DNA of 64,000 nt from Holdemania massiliensis AP2 (GTDB lineage: Bacteria > Bacillota_I > Bacilli_A > Erysipelotrichales > Erysipelotrichaceae), in contig NZ_HE998568.1 in NCBI RefSeq assembly GCF_000327285.1, forward strand, positions 514,810-578,809, read 5' to 3'. Shown piece by piece: positions 43,648 to 57,623 of this stretch. Position 1 is the first letter of the stretch; each line of letters begins with the position of its first letter. The position numbers were made by a program, and so were the translations under genes. A model generated the notes under the pieces. It was not told the DNA's origin and made no database searches. It was given only the letters and a program-made list of their open reading frames with translations.

Positions 43648-44352
43648 TCATAGTTTATTAAGTAAATTGAAAAAAACTATTGAAATATTATCATTTTCCC
43701 CACGATCATATAATGTCTGAATTGTAGATGAAATGACTGTTTCATCTTGTTTTTCCATTAATTCAGCTATCTTAATCATTTCATTTTCATCTAATTTATT
43801 ATAAAATCCATCAGACGTAATAATAACAATATCACCTTTTTGCAACTTACGCATGGTTGTATAGGCTCGTTCCGACATTCCCATTCCCAGACACTTTGTT
43901 AAAGTTGAAGTTTTATTTCCCTTTGTGTCAAAAATTGCATGATCTTCACTTAATTGTTCAACTACGCCATTTCTTATGAAAAAACAACGTGTATCGCCGA
44001 TATTCTTCATAATTAGGATAGTTTCAATAATTACTGCAACTGTTAGTGTCGTCCCCCCTTGTTTCATATTTTCTTGATTGTATAATCGGCTTAAATGATC
44101 AATAATCGAAAAACATTGATCCAAAATTTCTTGACTATTCTCTATATTCAAAATTTCCCATTGCACATGCTCTTTTAAAATCTTAATGGCTGTCTGGGAA
44201 TGAACTTCTCCACAATCATACCCGCCCATTCCATCAGCAACTGCAATAGCTGCGATTTCTTGATCTTTAAAAATCCAACGCTTTGCAAAAATGCTATCTT
44301 CGTTTACAGATTTAATCTTACCTTGAGTTGTGAATCCTGAAACCTTAATCAT
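43648..44352 (-). CDS. PP2C-type Ser/Thr protein phosphatase
   Basis: A soluble 234-residue phosphatase. GKIKSVNEDSIF, AVADGMGGYDCGE, GDTRCFFIRNG, SEDHAIFD and GDIVIITSDGFYNKL give the metal-binding aspartates of the PP2C/PrpC family. It is the last gene of the type VII locus, 8 bp after the FHA gene, and is the natural antagonist of the kinase encoded at 53932-55926. Confidence 0.93.
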   Translation of the reverse strand: MIKVSGFTTQGKIKSVNEDSIFAKRWIFKDQEIAAIAVADGMGGYDCGEVHSQTAIKILKEHVQWEILNIENSQEILDQCFSIIDHLSRLYNQENMKQGGTTLTVAVIIETILIMKNIGDTRCFFIRNGVVEQLSEDHAIFDTKGNKTSTLTKCLGMGMSERAYTTMRKLQKGDIVIITSDGFYNKLDENEMIKIAELMEKQDETVISSTIQTLYDRGENDNISIVFFNLLNKL

Positions 44353-44360
44353 AATCCATC

Positions 44361-44936
44361 TTACTCAGCAATCGTAATTAAAGCTCTTCCAATTTTCAAA
44401 ACATCATTTTTGCGAATTTTAATTTTTTTAGAACCTTCTATTTTAAGCCCATTAATATAAATTCCATTATTAGAATTCAAGTCTGTAATATAAAACTCGT
44501 TATTTACACAATCAATTACCGCATGTCTTCTTCCAACCGCTGGCTCTTCAATCAAAACATCACATTCTCCAGCTAAGCGTCCTACGAGACATGGAAACTT
44601 TTTAATTTGAATTTCGCTTATCATAGAATTAATATCTACTCTTAATTCAAGCTTTGGATTTTCTACTTCACACAGACTTTGAGTTTTAGCTTCATCCTGG
44701 GGAATGAAAAAACTAGTTCCTGTTTCTTCTATTTCAGTTTTTTTTATTTCCTCTTTTATCTCTGGTTTTACCTCTTTCAAACGATGCCCGCATCTTGGAC
44801 AAAATTCATTTATTTCTTGTAATGCAGCGCCACATTTAGGACAATAACCTTGAGGCTTTACTCTCCTTTTTTTATACTCCCTATAACAAAAAAACAAAAC
44901 GATTATCCCGAATAACGCAAAAATAATATATTCCAT
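44361..44936 (-). CDS. Membrane zinc-ribbon protein with FHA domain
   Basis: A 191-residue protein. A membrane helix at residues 3-18 is followed by basic residues, so the rest should be cytoplasmic. A zinc ribbon has CPKC and CPRC (Cys 32, 35, 46, 49). After an acidic linker containing KKTEIEETGTS comes an FHA domain: VGRLAGECDVLI, GRRHAVI and DLNSNNGIYING (about 118-163), with the phosphothreonine-binding Arg and Ser/Asn positions present. It would read phosphothreonines made by the locus kinase. Confidence 0.88.
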   Translation of the reverse strand: MEYIIFALFGIIVLFFCYREYKKRRVKPQGYCPKCGAALQEINEFCPRCGHRLKEVKPEIKEEIKKTEIEETGTSFFIPQDEAKTQSLCEVENPKLELRVDINSMISEIQIKKFPCLVGRLAGECDVLIEEPAVGRRHAVIDCVNNEFYITDLNSNNGIYINGLKIEGSKKIKIRKNDVLKIGRALITIAE

Positions 44937-49930: not shown

Positions 49931-50881
49931 TTACTGCTGAGTTAGTGAGGTTATTTCGAAGCATTTTACCATCGAACTTCCGTCATCATTATTAATACGA
50001 ACTTCTTTTTTTAAAAGAATATTAGCTTCGTCATAATATGTATAAATTATTGAATCCTCACCTATCAATGTCACAATTTTGTAAGTTAGTTCCTTTTGAT
50101 TATTATAATGTGTTTGTATCTCAGAATTTCCATCATTGTTAAATTGAACATATCCTTTCAAATCCCCTTCTGAAGTATATTCAATCATTTTATAATTCTT
50201 TTTGTCTATTTCCTCTCGAATTAGATATGATATCATATTCCCCTCAACATAGTAGTATTCCTGTTTCGTTATAATACTTTTATCTATATTATTACGATAT
50301 AAAACTAATTTTAATACATCTCCAGTATCTTCATTAAATCCACAAGTGTAAATCTTTTCACCTTCTCTATACATAGAACATTCGCTCATTAGCCTATCCT
50401 CCACATCAAATGCTTGCACTGTTCCTTCCTGACAGTACTTCTCTCTATTCCATTGGACATTGTGTACCCGATACCACAAAACTTCATCATTTGCGTTATA
50501 AGCAGTTTCTGTTCGAATACCATTTACGTCAACAACCGTTTCTATTCTGCTATAAGTATCCTTCTTCTCTTGTCCATATACACCCAAAAGGAGTTCATTT
50601 ATATCTATAGATTTTGTGTTCTTATATCCTTTTTCCAAAATTTCTTCTGCTTTATCAAATAAATTCTGTAGTGCATAGGCATCAGATAACGCAATATAAT
50701 TCTGAGGATTCTGCGGATCAATTTCAATCGCTTCTTCAAACACAAGTATAGCTTCTTCATACTTTTTATCATTTAAATATTTAATTCCTAACTCATATTG
50801 TGAACTAGCAGCATTTTTATTTTCTGAACAAGCTGCTAGACTTAGCGATATAATAATTAGCATTGATAGTATTTTCTTCAT
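49931..50881 (-). CDS. TPR lipoprotein, paralogue B
   Basis: A 316-residue lipoprotein (lipobox SLAAC, Cys about 18). Two to three TPR units follow: YELGIKYLNDKKYEEAILVFEEAIEIDPQ, quoted in part, and LFDKAEEILEKGY. The C-terminal 200 residues form a beta-rich region with repeated YN/YD-like strands. It is clearly related to the product at 51200-52132 along its full length, a tandem duplicate. Function unknown; probably an extracytoplasmic scaffold in the type VII locus. Confidence 0.8.
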   Translation of the reverse strand: MKKILSMLIIISLSLAACSENKNAASSQYELGIKYLNDKKYEEAILVFEEAIEIDPQNPQNYIALSDAYALQNLFDKAEEILEKGYKNTKSIDINELLLGVYGQEKKDTYSRIETVVDVNGIRTETAYNANDEVLWYRVHNVQWNREKYCQEGTVQAFDVEDRLMSECSMYREGEKIYTCGFNEDTGDVLKLVLYRNNIDKSIITKQEYYYVEGNMISYLIREEIDKKNYKMIEYTSEGDLKGYVQFNNDGNSEIQTHYNNQKELTYKIVTLIGEDSIIYTYYDEANILLKKEVRINNDDGSSMVKCFEITSLTQQ

Positions 50882-50893
50882 TTCTTCATTTCT

Positions 50894-50965
50894 TCATTTC
50901 CCTTCCTTCATGTAAACTCGTTAATTTGGAAGACGACTGCTCAATTTCAGAATTCTTCAATTTAT
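50894..50965 (-). pseudogene. Remnant of the 3' end of a WG-repeat lipoprotein gene
   Basis: Minus-strand translation in one frame reads EIEQSSSKLTSLHEG, against the C-terminus of the intact gene at 52143-53492, DVEQSVSKYTIYIKE. Nucleotide similarity also continues further (about 50895-51000). It lies just upstream of paralogue B, exactly where the intact gene lies relative to paralogue A. This is the scar of a duplicated WG-gene/lipoprotein pair. Confidence 0.6.
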
Positions 50966-51027
50966 CCACGCTTTTCCTTCATGAAAATGATACGGCCTCA
51001 AATACTGGTAAAAGGTAGTTTAATCTA

Positions 51028-51152
51028 GGCTGCTGAAAAAGTATATTTATGAATTTACAATGGCATTTTATAACTTCAATACGTAATAATACGGCTAATC
51101 CATATATCAAGAAGAAATTTAGACGCAACTCAAATATCATTTTTTAGCAACC
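51028..51152. mobile_element. Candidate 125-bp MITE with TA target duplication
   Basis: Terminal inverted repeats of 21 bp match at 17 positions: GGCTGCTGAAAAAGTATATTT on the left, and on the right the complement of GGTTGCTAAAAAATGATATTT (each slightly over 20 bp). TA flanks both ends (51026-51027 and 51153-51154). This is the pattern of IS630/mariner-type non-autonomous elements. No transposase is in the window. Confidence 0.55.
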
Positions 51153-51199
51153 TATTTCAATCACATTTCTCCTCAGCTTAGCTGGCCTTTAATATTTAC

Positions 51200-52132
51200 T
51201 TAGTTATCTTTTATTGTCTGCAATAAATTTCCATCTGCGTCATAGTATTCAGTAATATCTCCGTTTTCATCAATGATTCGAATATGTTTTCCATTTAATT
51301 TCCCCTCAGAATCATAAGTAGAATATGTTATTTTATCATCTTCTGTTACTATAATAAACATACTTGTTACGTTATCTTCAGCATCATAACGTGTTTGTTT
51401 CGTTGTATTACCACTTGTTTCGAAAACTGTATAATAATGTAGCTTACCAAAAGAATATGTTTCTACTCGTCGAGTATTTGCATCTATATCAATAAAAAGA
51501 TCGTATTGTGTAACATTTCCTTGCTTATCGAGCCATTCTGTTTTTTCAATACGTTGGTTTTCTCCTATATGGTATATCATTTGGATTAATTCTCCAGTAT
51601 TATCATCATAACCACACGCATAACTTACTGAATAATTATTTTCTTTATAACCAAGTAAACATCTGCTTGTCTCTTCTCCTAAATGATTATATGAAATAAT
51701 TTCTCCGTCTTGACTTCCATGATCAAATTCCACATTATAAACTCGATACCAGATTAAATTCTGTGAAGTGTCATAAGCACTTTCCTTACGTATTTGTCCG
51801 GTATTATCTTTAATAATTCCTGATTTAAACTCATCCAATTTCTCTTTTATTTCCTTTGACTTGGTTTCTTTATATCCTCTCTCCAATATAGTTTCTGCTT
51901 CTTCAAATAAATTTTTTCTAATAAGGATATCAGCTATATTAAGATAAAGATCGGAATTCTTAGGTTCTATATTAATTGCTTCCTCAAAAGCAAGAATTGC
52001 TTCTTCATAATTTCCTTCATTTACATATTTAATTCCCAAGTTGTATTGTGAGCTAACATCACCTTTATTTTCTGCTGAACAAGCCAAAAGACTTAGTGAG
52101 ATAATAATTAATACTAATAGTATTTTTTTCAT
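51200..52132 (-). CDS. TPR lipoprotein, paralogue A
   Basis: A 310-residue lipoprotein (lipobox LLAC, Cys about 18) with TPR units (YNLGIKYVNEGNYEEAILAF, then LFEEAETILERGYKET). The C-terminal region has repeated segments of the type TYDSEGKLNGKHIRI and YYDADGNLLQ. It is the duplicate of the product at 49931-50881. It begins 10 bp before the end of the WG lipoprotein gene's spacer, so the genes are co-transcribed. Role unknown. Confidence 0.82.
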   Translation of the reverse strand: MKKILLVLIIISLSLLACSAENKGDVSSQYNLGIKYVNEGNYEEAILAFEEAINIEPKNSDLYLNIADILIRKNLFEEAETILERGYKETKSKEIKEKLDEFKSGIIKDNTGQIRKESAYDTSQNLIWYRVYNVEFDHGSQDGEIISYNHLGEETSRCLLGYKENNYSVSYACGYDDNTGELIQMIYHIGENQRIEKTEWLDKQGNVTQYDLFIDIDANTRRVETYSFGKLHYYTVFETSGNTTKQTRYDAEDNVTSMFIIVTEDDKITYSTYDSEGKLNGKHIRIIDENGDITEYYDADGNLLQTIKDN

Positions 52133-52142
52133 TTCTTCTAAT

Positions 52143-53492
52143 TCACTCCTTTATGTAAATCGTATATTTAGAAACCGACTGTTCAACATCTAAAATTCCC
52201 CATAAACCATCTCGTTTCGCCCAATCCTTTCCATCATAAACAGGTCGTGTCTCTTCAAATTCAAATGGTATCGCTATATTTCCGTTCGTATCAATATAGC
52301 CCCACATTCCATCCAATTTAACTGCCGCATAGCCTCCTGTAAAATCATAGGCGTTCTCATAGATCATCTCTGTAATCTGATTTCCATAAATATCATAGAA
52401 TCCAAATCGATAATCTTCTATTCTAGGCTCTGATTCTCTCCAATAATTAATCTCTTTATCAGAAACGCGAATAAAATTGTTGGATATTCCACCAACAGCA
52501 AAACCATTCAGATAATAAACATTGCCCGCTTGATCAACAATTGTTTGAGAATCAATAAGATAAGCTCCATTGGATAATCCTAATGTTTCAATGCCAAAAC
52601 AACCCTCATAATTGCAATATTCTATCCCATTATTTGTTTTATTCAAAAAATATCCATCTCCTGCAAATGTAGGAATACCCCGAATTCTTACATTTTGACT
52701 GAAATCATCACCATAAAATTCAACGTCCAAATATTCTATCATTCCATTCGAATCAAAAACTTCTGAAGTAATTGAATAGCCCAAATAGATCTCTCCACGT
52801 GCTGTAATTGTGTACCCATATTGAATAGTTTCATCTTTCAACTCTTTAATTTTATTTCCATGAAAGTCATAGATACTAAAGTTTCCTGCTTGAACTACTT
52901 TAACATAATCTTTGTCATAGTAACCTTGGCAGTTTCGTTCATTCATTAGTTCATAAGATAATGCATCAACATAACAACTACGATAATCCTCAGCACCATT
53001 CATAAAACTATCTGCAGTAATTCTCCCCCTGTTCCAATTCACCACATCAACATAATCAAAATCAAATTGAGGTTCAATAATCCATATGGGTGATGTTTTA
53101 GAATGAAGCATTCCTTCGTTGACCTGAATTTCAAACTCTCCAATTAATTCTGCAGATTCTGATTTTTTTAACTGCACCAATTCATCTTTAATCTGTGCAA
53201 ACAAACTCTCCTGCTTATCTGGAATATTTTGAATTGCCTCTTCAATATAATAGCCAATCAGTTCAGGATCTTTTTGTATAGCTGCGACAATAATTATACC
53301 AGTGTAACCATTTTGATCTTGTGGATCAATAGTAATCATTTCCTCAAAATACAAAATTGCTTCTTCATAATTATTTTCTCGAATTAGCTGTAACCCTTTA
53401 TTGAATTTTGAGATTTCCTTTTTAGACTGACACCCTATTATACTAATTAATAAGCATAGAATTAATCCCCATTTCTTAATCATGATATTCAT
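52143..53492 (-). CDS. TPR and WG-repeat lipoprotein
   Basis: A 449-residue lipoprotein with lipobox SIIGC (Cys about 21) and a TPR unit (FNKGLQLIRENNYEEAILYF). A long beta-rich part has WG-type repeats near the C-terminus: GGYAAVKLDGMWGYIDTNGN and WAKRDGLWGILD. WG repeats form beta-propeller-like or solenoid surfaces for binding. The first ATG (53490-53492) overlaps the preceding gene by 17 bp; a second ATG three codons later is an alternative. It probably works at the outer face with the TPR lipoproteins and the kinase's TPR domain. Confidence 0.8.
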   Translation of the reverse strand: MNIMIKKWGLILCLLISIIGCQSKKEISKFNKGLQLIRENNYEEAILYFEEMITIDPQDQNGYTGIIIVAAIQKDPELIGYYIEEAIQNIPDKQESLFAQIKDELVQLKKSESAELIGEFEIQVNEGMLHSKTSPIWIIEPQFDFDYVDVVNWNRGRITADSFMNGAEDYRSCYVDALSYELMNERNCQGYYDKDYVKVVQAGNFSIYDFHGNKIKELKDETIQYGYTITARGEIYLGYSITSEVFDSNGMIEYLDVEFYGDDFSQNVRIRGIPTFAGDGYFLNKTNNGIEYCNYEGCFGIETLGLSNGAYLIDSQTIVDQAGNVYYLNGFAVGGISNNFIRVSDKEINYWRESEPRIEDYRFGFYDIYGNQITEMIYENAYDFTGGYAAVKLDGMWGYIDTNGNIAIPFEFEETRPVYDGKDWAKRDGLWGILDVEQSVSKYTIYIKE

Positions 53493-53811
53493 CTTTTCTA
53501 ACAGAATTTAAAATTTCTGTATCCCCAAGCAATGACTCCATTGGTTTAGTTTGACTTCTAGAATCTAGCAGCTCTGTTTCTTTTTGTAACACTTCTGTAG
53601 TCATCAAATGATCATCATGATACATTTCTGTGTCCTTTTTATCTAGTATATCTTCTGTTGCATAACCTTTTTTTATAAATTCTGTCTTCCCTTTACTAGG
53701 TTGAATTTCATTATTTTTTTCATAAATCAGCGGCCTCTTTTTATAATAAAACGCTAACCCAATTGTAATCACAAATAAGATAATCCCACACAGCATTAAA
53801 ATATTTCCCAT
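53476..53811 (-). CDS. Single-pass membrane protein with six TE-x-hydrophobic motifs
   Basis: I do not recognise the family. Residues 5-23 form a membrane helix, and KKR after it puts the 85-residue tail in the cytoplasm. The tail repeats Thr-Glu with a hydrophobic or aromatic residue at +3: T43 (TEFI), T52 (TEDI), T61 (TEMY), T72 (TEVL), T79 (TELL) and T98 (TEIL). The first three are exactly nine residues apart. FHA domains read phosphothreonine with selectivity at +3, and the kinase is the upstream gene. A phospho-docking scaffold is the likely role, by inference. Confidence 0.72.
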   Translation of the reverse strand: MGNILMLCGIILFVITIGLAFYYKKRPLIYEKNNEIQPSKGKTEFIKKGYATEDILDKKDTEMYHDDHLMTTEVLQKETELLDSRSQTKPMESLLGDTEILNSVRKDEYHD

Positions 53812-53931: not shown

Positions 53932-55926
53932 TTAATCAAGCCAATGGCCTTTCTTTAACTGATCAATCAACCCTTGAAGTTGAACAAATTGAGAATCATT
54001 ATCCTCGTCCTTTATTTTCTTCTTCGCATTTTGATATTCTTCATAAGCTGGCCAGTAGTTTCTTTTCTCCTGAGGCTTTTCATTCTCTATTACAATGTAT
54101 AAAGTTGCCCTATAAGCGTTAGCTTCATAGGCGTCAGGATAAGCAGACTCCATTTTATCCAAAACTGTAAGCGCCTGTTCATATTCTCCGGCTTGTTGAT
54201 AAGCAATAAAAATATTAACATAGATATATTTTTTTTGAATGTTTAGATCCAATATCTGTTGAAAAGCCTTAGCAGAACTAATTAAATCATCGTAATCCTT
54301 ATCTGTTTCATAGATTGCTCGATTATAATAAGCAGCTCCTAACATTTCCCACAAAATAGAATCATTACTCCATCCATCTTTTTGTATCGACTGATTAATG
54401 AGTTCTATTTCTTTAGTTCTAGCGTTTTCAATTTCACTATTTGAAATTAAAGCAGCATCTCGATATACTGCAGCCAAGGAGATCACTGACTTTCTCTTTA
54501 AAGTTGTATTGCCAGTTTGATTTATTACATCTTTAAAACTTTGCTCTGCGTTACCATACTTCTTCAAAGAATAACTAATGCTTCCACTTATGTAAGAAAT
54601 CAGATCCTTATCCGCCCCCTCATCTTGTAGCTGGTCCAAAATCATCTCAGCGTCGTCTATATTTCCATTCATTGCCAGAGCAACAGCATAATCTCTTGAC
54701 AAATTCTCATCTGGATTTTCTGTTTCTCTCAGCAGCTTTTCATAACAAGCTACTGCTTCAGGATATTTTTCTTTTTCAAAATAAGCAGAAGCTAGAATTA
54801 ATTCCATAGTTTGATCCTGCTTTAATACATCTTGTGTTGTCTGAATTTCTGTTATATACGCAATGCATTGATCATAATCTAAAGCGTTATAATAAGCACG
54901 AGCCTTTAAAATATATGCAGATGTTTGTTTACTATCCAGCTTTTGAGCCTCTTCCAAATAGCTAAGAGCCTCCATAGGTTGCTTATCAATCAGCTGCTGA
55001 GCTGAATTGATATATTGCTGATAAATACTGGCATTTTCATTTTTTTTGACTACAAAACCAGCAAGAATCAATATAATGGACATCCCTCCCATTAACCAAA
55101 GTTTAAGTTTTCTATATCTTTTCCTTTTAATGAATTTTTGATACGTTTCCTCAAAACGATAAATATGATCTAAATCCTCAATAAGTTCTTTCGTAGAAGC
55201 ATAACGATCTTCTGGTTCCTGTTGGATACAACGATCTATAATCGTTTCAATTCCTACAGACAACTCTGGATTTAATTCTCGAATCGGAATAAAGCGATAT
55301 GGAGGCTCATACGGACTTTTTCCAGATAGAATATGATACATTGTAACACCCAATGAATAAATATCTGTCCTAGCATCTGATTGCGCTTTCCCAGCCTGTT
55401 CTGGAGCCATGTAACCTTTCGTTCCAACAAATGTTGTATCAGCAATTGCTTCTTCCTTATATTCACGCGCAATACCAAAGTCAATTAGTTTCAAATTGCC
55501 GTCAGGTTGTATCATGATATTAGAAGGCTTCATGTCACGATAAATAATTGGATTAGGCTTCTGATTATGCAAATACCCTAAGCATTCAGCAATGCGTTTA
55601 AACCAGATTAATCCGATTTTTTCATCAAACTTAATCTGACGTTTTAAAACGGTTTCTAAATTATCACCGGCAACATAATCTTCTACAACATACAAATAAT
55701 GATTATCTTCAAAAATATCAACAATTTTGGGTAACATGGGATGCTGTAATTTTTTCAATATATTCGCTTCTGCTAGAAAGTCAAACTTTGCTTTCTGATT
55801 TTTTGATACTTGTTTTACAGCCCAGATTGTCCCCAATCGGACATGTTCTGCTTTATAAACAGTAGACATGCCCCCCTTTCCGATTATTTCTAAAATGCGA
55901 TATGTATTATTAATTAGTTGTTCCAT
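53932..55926 (-). CDS. Membrane Ser/Thr kinase with extracellular TPR domain
   Basis: A 664-residue PknB-like kinase. GKGGMSTVYKAE (16-27) is the glycine loop, Lys38 is in AVKQV, Glu53 follows, YRDMKPSN (129-136) is the catalytic loop, and DFG (149-151) and APEQ (174-177) complete the active set. A membrane helix lies at 275-293. The remaining 370 residues are tandem TPR-like units outside the cell. EssB/YukC of known T7SSb has a pseudokinase, a membrane helix and an outside domain; this protein has that topology but keeps its catalytic residues. The ATG follows AGAAGGAAAA. Confidence 0.9.
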   Translation of the reverse strand: MEQLINNTYRILEIIGKGGMSTVYKAEHVRLGTIWAVKQVSKNQKAKFDFLAEANILKKLQHPMLPKIVDIFEDNHYLYVVEDYVAGDNLETVLKRQIKFDEKIGLIWFKRIAECLGYLHNQKPNPIIYRDMKPSNIMIQPDGNLKLIDFGIAREYKEEAIADTTFVGTKGYMAPEQAGKAQSDARTDIYSLGVTMYHILSGKSPYEPPYRFIPIRELNPELSVGIETIIDRCIQQEPEDRYASTKELIEDLDHIYRFEETYQKFIKRKRYRKLKLWLMGGMSIILILAGFVVKKNENASIYQQYINSAQQLIDKQPMEALSYLEEAQKLDSKQTSAYILKARAYYNALDYDQCIAYITEIQTTQDVLKQDQTMELILASAYFEKEKYPEAVACYEKLLRETENPDENLSRDYAVALAMNGNIDDAEMILDQLQDEGADKDLISYISGSISYSLKKYGNAEQSFKDVINQTGNTTLKRKSVISLAAVYRDAALISNSEIENARTKEIELINQSIQKDGWSNDSILWEMLGAAYYNRAIYETDKDYDDLISSAKAFQQILDLNIQKKYIYVNIFIAYQQAGEYEQALTVLDKMESAYPDAYEANAYRATLYIVIENEKPQEKRNYWPAYEEYQNAKKKIKDEDNDSQFVQLQGLIDQLKKGHWLD

Positions 55927-56316: not shown

Positions 56317-56568
56317 TCAAAGAACTAGTACAATATCTCCGCCTACAATGTTGTTTTCTTTTAAAGTCCAATGCTCATTAAGTGCAACTTGCAATTTAGG
56401 AATATATAAATTTGTTTGGTTTATTGAGAAAGATAAACCTGGATTAATATTTTCCATTTGCTTTAAAAGCTGTTCTTTAAATTTTATTCCAGAAATCAAA
56501 TCATCGGTCTCTATTTCAAACTTTTGATGCAAACTTACAAACTCTGCTTCCAAATATATTCTTGCCAT
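56317..56568 (-). CDS. YukD/EsaB ubiquitin-like protein
   Basis: An 83-residue protein with the ubiquitin-like strand order of the YukD family. It opens RIYLEAEFVSLHQKFEIETD, and its C-terminal NEHWTLKENNIVGGDIVLVL matches the family's final L-xx-x-GI-xGD-xLxL segment. EsaB/YukD is a conserved cytoplasmic T7SSb component. It is the fourth gene after essC, with a 15-bp gap. Confidence 0.82.
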   Translation of the reverse strand: MARIYLEAEFVSLHQKFEIETDDLISGIKFKEQLLKQMENINPGLSFSINQTNLYIPKLQVALNEHWTLKENNIVGGDIVLVL

Positions 56569-56583
56569 ATGCGGTTCCTCCTT

Positions 56584-56907
56584 CTATCGGTATAGTTCAA
56601 TATCAAAAACTTGTATTTTTATTTCGTGATTATTAGAACAGATTTCTAATACGATTTTTTCTCCTTGATAAATTTTTTTATTTTCATACTGATTTACTTT
56701 ATCTGCTATCGACATTTCTTTTAAAATCAAAGCGATAACAGGATCTATTTTAAGCTGTTCAAGCTCGTAATGAATAAATTTCTTTTTAATCAAACTTTGT
56801 TTACAAGATAAATGTTCGCAGAATACTTTTTCTGAAGACACTTGATCAATCAACAGACTCCACAGCGCACTCAATTCTTCCTGAGTAAATATATAGGCGA
56901 CTTTCAT
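56584..56907 (-). CDS. Hypothetical T7SS-operon protein
   Basis: A 107-residue soluble protein of no recognised family. It begins MKVAYIFTQEELSALWSLL and is mixed helix and strand, ending in IKIQVFDIELYR. Its start overlaps the LytTR gene by 4 bp and its stop lies 15 bp before yukD. A dedicated adaptor or chaperone would fit the position, without direct evidence. Confidence 0.65.
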   Translation of the reverse strand: MKVAYIFTQEELSALWSLLIDQVSSEKVFCEHLSCKQSLIKKKFIHYELEQLKIDPVIALILKEMSIADKVNQYENKKIYQGEKIVLEICSNNHEIKIQVFDIELYR

Positions 56908-57623
56908 TCGCTCTTCCTCTTTTCAAGCCACATTTTCACATTATTTTTATATCCTCTAGAATAAGGAATCTTAACATTATTCGTCAAAATCAATAAAGAG
57001 TTGTGTGAATCAACCTGTTTGATTTCTTCACAGTTAACCATGTAACCTTTATGGCAACGAAGAAAATGCTCATCCAATTTATCTGCTATTTGACCAAATG
57101 TTGAGTAAAATTCAATTTCCTGTCCAAAGGTACGAATAACCATTTTCTTGCTTCTTGCTTCGATATATAAAATCATTGCTTGAGGAATATTGTGAATTTC
57201 TCCCTCTATTTTTACACATAGGTTTTTTTGTTTTTGACATCGTTTATTCTGATCAACATGAATTTCCTCGAAAGTCTTCCGCAGCAATTCCCTGTTTAAT
57301 GGATATGTTAATATTGCGCTCGGACGAATTGATGGACGAACAAGCTCCATAAATTCGTCAGTTTGCTTTATCGAAAAGATAAAATATGTACGTTCATTGA
57401 TTCTGCGGATCATCTCAATCATTTCAAGAATAGATTGAGTGCAGTCATCAAGCAAAATAATATACACATCATGATATGGCTTAGTTCCCAACAAAACTTT
57501 GACTTGCTCCTTTTGAAAAAACTCAGTATTTTTAATAAAGCGATACTTTCTATGGATTGTTTCACGATAAATCTTGATAAACTCTCCGGGATTTTCCTGA
57601 AAATTCAGTAAGCATACATTCAT
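56904..57623 (-). CDS. LytTR regulator with degenerate receiver-like domain
   Basis: A 239-residue protein. The C-terminal 110 residues form a LytTR DNA-binding domain (ILYIEARSKKMVIRT, DEHFLRCHKGYMVNCEEI, KIPYSRGYKNNVK). The N-terminal part resembles a receiver fold but begins CLLNFQEN instead of the usual acidic pair, so classical phosphorylation is doubtful. Its ATG overlaps the essC stop (4 bp), so regulator and ATPase are translationally coupled. Confidence 0.82.
   Translation of the reverse strand: MNVCLLNFQENPGEFIKIYRETIHRKYRFIKNTEFFQKEQVKVLLGTKPYHDVYIILLDDCTQSILEMIEMIRRINERTYFIFSIKQTDEFMELVRPSIRPSAILTYPLNRELLRKTFEEIHVDQNKRCQKQKNLCVKIEGEIHNIPQAMILYIEARSKKMVIRTFGQEIEFYSTFGQIADKLDEHFLRCHKGYMVNCEEIKQVDSHNSLLILTNNVKIPYSRGYKNNVKMWLEKRKSE

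Follow-up and report, generated by a model that had tools for sequence, protein, structure and literature searches.

Thr-x-[VIL]-Leu repeats on a small membrane protein beside a Hanks-type kinase form a probable docking strip for FHA domains

The window, a 64,000-nucleotide stretch of Holdemania massiliensis AP2 DNA, carries a reverse-strand type VII secretion locus in which a small membrane protein, here termed TsxK-like, is encoded among a kinase, a phosphatase, a zinc-ribbon/FHA protein, and an EssC-like ATPase that has an FHA domain of its own. The features used below are as follows.

43648..44352, minus strand: PP2C-family phosphatase of the TsxF type, the likely eraser
44361..44936, minus strand: membrane-anchored zinc-ribbon and FHA protein, TsxJ-like without DUF6382
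53476..53811, minus strand: TsxK-like single-pass membrane protein, 111 aa, ATG start
53509..53607, minus strand: T72 (TEVL), T79 (TELL), and T98 (TEIL), the three matches to the family motif T-x-[VIL]-L
53740..53811, minus strand: N-terminal signal-anchor helix, residues ~1–24, followed by KKR on the cytoplasmic side
53932..55926, minus strand: Ser/Thr kinase (Hanks type) with a transmembrane (TM) helix and a C-terminal TPR domain, TsxD type
56317..57623, minus strand: three genes separating EssC from the kinase, for a LytTR regulator, a 107-aa protein, and a YukD-size protein of 83 aa
57620..62191, minus strand: EssC/TsxC-like ATPase with an N-terminal FHA domain at residues ~103–180

In the direction of transcription, the TsxK gene is preceded by genes for the EssC-like ATPase, the LytTR protein, the 107-aa protein, the 83-aa protein (which has both the place and the size of YukD), and the Hanks-type kinase. 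Downstream lie TPR/WG-repeat lipoproteins, several WXG100-size proteins, the zinc-ribbon/FHA protein, and the PP2C phosphatase; the TsxK gene overlaps the next gene by 17 bases. The lipoprotein genes that follow it are three in a row (49931–53492), and TPR lipoproteins of a similar kind are also encoded around the cassette in L108, L095, and L209. The YukD-size protein, the 107-aa protein, and the LytTR regulator are encoded beside EssC in the same order in four other genomes (G610, G557, G619, and G487).

The hydrophobic helix of the TsxK-like protein spans residues ~4–23 and is followed by KKR, which by the positive-inside rule predicts an N-out/C-in signal anchor. The predicted cytoplasmic tail (residues 24/26–111) would lie on the same side of the membrane as the kinase domain. 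A sequence-only reading of this DNA had pointed to six Thr-Glu sites with Ile, Tyr, or Leu at +3 in this tail, and all six are present: T43 (TEFI), T52 (TEDI), T61 (TEMY), T72 (TEVL), T79 (TELL), and T98 (TEIL). In composition-preserving shuffles of the 87-aa tail, TE-x-[ILVMFY] occurred ~0.3 times on average and four times at most, and six sites were reached in 0 of 200,000 shuffles; when TE dipeptides were kept as units, six were reached in 83 of 200,000. Chance is excluded for the six sites. The spacing of nine residues among T43, T52, and T61, also remarked on in that reading, is real in the window and is not seen in relatives; we set it aside as a chance feature.

Judged by position and architecture, the protein is the counterpart of TseK/TsjK, which the accessible text of Garrett, Higginson & Palmer 2024 (PMC11217815) describes as a core component of T7SSe and T7SSj, giving neither a motif nor a function for it. 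Like TseK/TsjK, the window protein has a single N-terminal TM helix and a short, unstructured cytoplasmic tail. Its locus resembles T7SSe and T7SSj loci in encoding a membrane kinase of the TsxD type (with a TPR C-terminus, as in TsjD), a PPM phosphatase of the TsxF type, an FHA protein, a TsxC ATPase with an FHA domain, and a YukD-like protein. In our literature search, T7SSe/T7SSj components were mentioned only in that 2024 paper, and nothing was found on this Thr motif together with FHA. No NCBIfam family and no above-cut-off Pfam family was found for the window protein; a match to Pfam falstatin (PF12628) fell below its cut-off and was discarded as low-complexity matching.

The window locus departs from T7SSe and T7SSj in two respects: It carries a LytTR gene, as T7SSi does, and no large Ig-like protein (TsjI/TsxI) is encoded beside the kinase within the locus. 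Although the kinase has the TPR C-terminus characteristic of T7SSj, we did not file the locus as T7SSj because the large Ig-like protein is missing, and with the T7SSi-like LytTR gene in addition we assigned no subtype. With its TPR kinase and its set of YukD-size, 107-aa, and LytTR genes, the locus as read from gene content does not fit any single published T7SS subtype.

A direct homologue search with the 111-aa protein returned nothing convincing, and an EssC-based scan of genome contigs yielded no relatives. Because the tail evolves too fast for such a search, we gathered counterparts by kinase neighborhood, taking the ORF directly downstream of each TsxD-type kinase in genome searches and in an alignment-based scan that covered 84,980 species genomes. 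This gave 76 candidates with an N-terminal TM helix (72 nonredundant), chosen blind to the motif; among them only L095 shows sequence similarity to the window protein, and that is weak (E 0.002). Two further boxes recur among the 72: a C-terminal H-[TS]-x-[ET] box in 33 and a juxtamembrane L-[ST]-G box right after the helix in 27, both absent from the window clade. In one genome, G619 (L211 and L212), the window kinase has 16 matches; the catalytic domains of 14 are 51–58% identical, and several of these kinase copies stand in tandem, an unusual lineage-specific expansion.

The closest counterparts, partners of kinases close to that of the window, retain Thr and a hydrophobic residue at +3 and differ in linkers, copy number, and the +1 residue. 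L108 carries TVLL, TELL twice, TQLL twice, and TALL; L209 carries TTLL and TTVM; and L111, from Desulfosporosinus, carries TESI, TDIL, TDVL, TDIL, TELI, and TEVI. The two Bacillaceae partners (L110 and L113) have five to eight sites each and L124 has three, whereas L095 has a single TTVM site (motif enrichment alone, p = 0.04). Six copies are thus not conserved and, together with the "TE" form, are lineage-specific. The L095 protein (L095:1984-3153, G557) carries its TTVM in a cytoplasmic loop, beyond which come a second TM helix and a large domain outside the cytoplasm.

Across the 72 tails, T-x-[VIL]-L was counted 265 times where shuffles gave 13.0 (sd 3.6, maximum 27), a 20-fold enrichment; for its narrower form T[TE][VIL]L the count is 117, and the shuffles gave 2.9. 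At least one copy of T-x-[VIL]-L is found in 61 tails (12.5 expected) and two or more in 52, with 0–17 copies per tail. The corresponding Ser pattern, S-x-[VIL]-L, stays at the background level (9 against 10.4), and variants with Leu at +4 or +5 (T-x-x-x-L and T-x-x-x-x-L) are depleted. Information around Thr amounts to 0.48 bits at +3 and 0.20 bits at +2; around Ser it is 0.01–0.05 bits, with ~0.02 at +3. The density of the motif is 19.2 per 1,000 aa in TsxK and 1.4 in the other ORFs of the same cassette loci, which served as background. About 11 of the 72 position-chosen tails lack it, and some of these are probably spurious ORFs.

Because +1 is free—Asp, Glu, Thr, Ser, Ala, or Val in relatives—"TE" is not the rule, and we rejected it as the motif in favor of T-x-[VIL]-L. 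In the window, only T72, T79, and T98 conform to this tight consensus; the other three of the six, T43, T52, and T61, are looser variants. The comparison with relatives that the sequence-only reading had proposed, in which the Thr and +3 residues would be kept while the linkers vary, was borne out, with the refinements that +3 is mostly Leu and that Ser does not substitute. Recognition by FHA domains is characterized by Thr rather than Ser and by selection at +3 (accessible text of PMC3146460; PMC3953482), and the tails display both properties as a family-wide sequence constraint.

The same motif recurs in two partner proteins. The FHA proteins of the relatives' cassettes are TsxJ proteins, composed of DUF6382 and an FHA domain. 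Of 87 linkers ahead of the FHA domain in these proteins, 43 contain T[TE][VIL]L, with 80 copies in total where 1.3 are expected. These copies always lie 16–51 residues before the FHA domain, and no Ser version occurs. Activation loops of the cassette kinases read D-T-x-x-[L/I/A]-G in 78 of 79 cases (Leu in 73, Ile in 4, Ala in 1), and that of the window kinase, ADTTFVGT, reads D-T-x-x-V; in PASTA kinases from related genomes the loop differs. Since the motif is common to the kinase loop, the TsxK tail, and the TsxJ linker, a single grammar runs through the putative writer, the scaffold, and the reader. The zinc-ribbon FHA protein of the window has no T-T-V-L site.

Phosphothreonine-pocket residues are largely kept in the 92 FHA domains of these loci (Ser in 83, Asn in all 92). 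In the window, the EssC FHA pocket (RSGHSNTN) keeps R, S, N, and T, and hence the full Arg/Ser/Asn set. The zinc-ribbon pocket (RGRHSNIN) has Gly in place of the phosphate-contacting Ser and Ile in place of Thr, which makes it the weaker candidate reader; its counterpart in L095 has the Ser and lacks the Arg/Lys. AlphaFold models were made for these two window proteins. The predicted EssC FHA fold (mean pLDDT 83) matches S. aureus SAV0287 (1wv3), the B. subtilis T7b core unit, and phosphothreonine-binding FHA domains, and its closest solved relative by sequence is the Rv1747 FHA domain (6cah). The FHA fold is present in the zinc-ribbon protein as well. Of the two readers put forward in the sequence-only reading, EssC thus retains an intact pocket, whereas the substitutions in the zinc-ribbon protein count against it.

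Because the motif is kept as Thr only while its surroundings change, we consider it likely that TsxK is a membrane-tethered, disordered strip of kinase sites whose phosphothreonines, each with a hydrophobic +3 residue, are read by FHA domains. The adjacent TsxD kinase would phosphorylate the Thr residues of the T-x-[VIL]-[L/I] repeats and, in many relatives, also the linker ahead of the TsxJ FHA domain. FHA domains would then recognize phosphothreonine together with Leu or Ile at +3: in the window that of EssC and perhaps that of the zinc-ribbon protein, and in most relatives that of TsxJ. The multisite tail could thereby gather its readers multivalently at the membrane beside the kinase, along with the secretion ATPase where EssC is present and with a possible effect on secretion, and the PP2C phosphatase would reset it. 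The core of the original proposal, a multisite FHA docking platform next to the kinase, is thus favored by the retention of Thr and +3 in relatives, while its six copies and its "TE" signature do not carry over, and its zinc-ribbon reader is the weaker candidate. A Thr-only motif with Leu at +3, present in up to 17 copies and common to an FHA linker and a kinase loop, offers a specific and testable role for TseK/TsjK and brings the control of these secretion systems by kinases, phosphatases, and FHA domains within reach of experiments on peptides.

Other readings explain parts of the same data. The tail might consist of kinase substrate sites only and act as a phosphate sink, a competitor, or a charge switch with no FHA reader. 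Multisite tails can buffer kinases, and the kinase's own loop follows the same D-T-x-x-L grammar, so that the motif, with its Thr preference and its +3 Leu, could stem from the kinase alone. Bacterial Hanks kinases usually accept some Ser, however, and Ser in this context stays at background; the motif also adjoins the FHA domains of TsxJ, and an FHA protein recurs in the cassette. We regard a reader-free tail as unlikely. Less probable still, with only a slim chance in our estimate, is that T-x-[VIL]-L is an unphosphorylated linear motif that docks another protein, such as the kinase domain or the ATPase, through a hydrophobic clamp. The two hydrophobic residues at +2 and +3 do dominate the motif, and acidic residues at −1 and −2 could be ordinary contacts, but Ser, nearly as good for an unphosphorylated contact, is not tolerated, and kinase, phosphatase, and FHA genes usually surround TsxK. 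The variation from 0 to 17 copies, with near-identical tandem units in the L118 and L125 tails, could suggest a functionless low-complexity repeat expanded by slippage. Neutral expansion is contradicted by the 20-fold enrichment across tails with unrelated linkers (61 of 72 tails against 12.5 expected) and by the presence of the motif in TsxJ; we give it almost no weight and rejected it.

A further variant is compatible with FHA docking on a phosphorylated tail and differs in the route by which it acts: TsxK phosphothreonines would draw the FHA protein to the kinase, there to serve as its substrate, in the manner of PknG and GarA but in trans, with regulation passing through TsxJ rather than EssC. 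PknG recruits GarA/OdhI through its FHA domain by means of an autophosphorylated N-terminal Thr (PMC8546545), the T-T-V-L sites of TsxJ itself, 16–51 aa before the FHA domain, resemble the ETTS site of OdhI/GarA, and the cassette exists without EssC. The window sits less comfortably with this route, as its EssC FHA domain is intact, whereas in its FHA protein the pocket is damaged and a T-T-V-L site is lacking. We hold the variant to be a serious possibility, at somewhat less than an even chance.

Repeated phosphosites on a disordered protein that are read by FHA domains occur in eukaryotic MDC1-type arrays, which belong to DNA-damage signaling and have no homology to TsxK. Among bacterial systems, the Agrobacterium type VI secretion system offers a parallel in which the membrane kinase PpkA phosphorylates Thr14 of TssL, Fha binds the phosphothreonine, and secretion is activated (PMC3953482). 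The likeness to the proposed TsxK system lies in a membrane protein whose cytoplasmic part bears a Thr served by a kinase and an FHA protein; TssL, however, offers one site on a core component of an unrelated secretion system, whereas TsxK is a small dedicated protein whose tail repeats the site. PknG uses a disordered multi-Thr segment to recruit its FHA substrate GarA/OdhI, whose N-terminal phosphosite near the FHA domain resembles the TsxJ linker site (PMC8546545). Its sites lie in the kinase itself and serve metabolic control, whereas those of TsxK lie on a separate membrane protein. In M. tuberculosis Rv1747, FHA domains are joined to a transport ATPase, and clustering at the membrane is controlled by kinase and phosphatase (PMC9312465). 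Rv1747 is an ABC transporter with its own phospholinker and, unlike the TsxK system, has no separate scaffold protein.

Kinase, phosphatase, FHA protein, and TsxK recur together as one cassette, whose distribution extends beyond type VII secretion. True EssC (E < 1e-170) was found in 14 of the 28 cassette-bearing genomes tested and not in the other 14, an absence that is firm for isolate genomes only—including Thomasclavelia cocleata DSM 1551, Desulfosporosinus sp. HMP52, and Clostridium lacusfryxellense—as several other genomes are draft or metagenome-assembled. In the EssC-negative genomes, the EssC profile gave FtsK-range matches only (107–135 bits, against 1125–1874 in two positives), and no WXG100 protein was found in 13 of the 14. 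EssC is not required for the motif: TsxK carries 1–8 copies in EssC-negative and 1–17 in EssC-positive genomes. Because half of the tested genomes lack EssC, the general reader must be sought elsewhere than in its FHA domain. The strongest candidate for that role is TsxJ, with EssC a putative additional reader where present, as in the window.

These distributions lead us to propose, tentatively and at not far short of even chances, that TsxD–TsxF–TsxJ–TsxK is a portable phosphothreonine cassette and not strictly a part of type VII secretion. The membrane kinase would write T-x-[VIL]-L marks both on the tethered multisite scaffold and on the FHA protein, so that FHA domains cluster multivalently and reversibly at the membrane; the cassette is linked to type VII secretion in some genomes and placed beside Tad-pilus genes in others. 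Its occurrence in genomes without EssC or WXG100 proteins calls into question its intrinsic membership of type VII secretion.

Genes for TadE-like proteins or A24 prepilin peptidases lie just upstream of the FHA gene in four EssC-negative loci (L111, L116, L118, and L124), which suggests a second role with Tad/Flp pili. In one locus with the same cassette, a protein encoded a few genes upstream of the kinase (L184:79-1524) combines a TadE-like N-terminus with a C-terminal TNT domain (PF14021).
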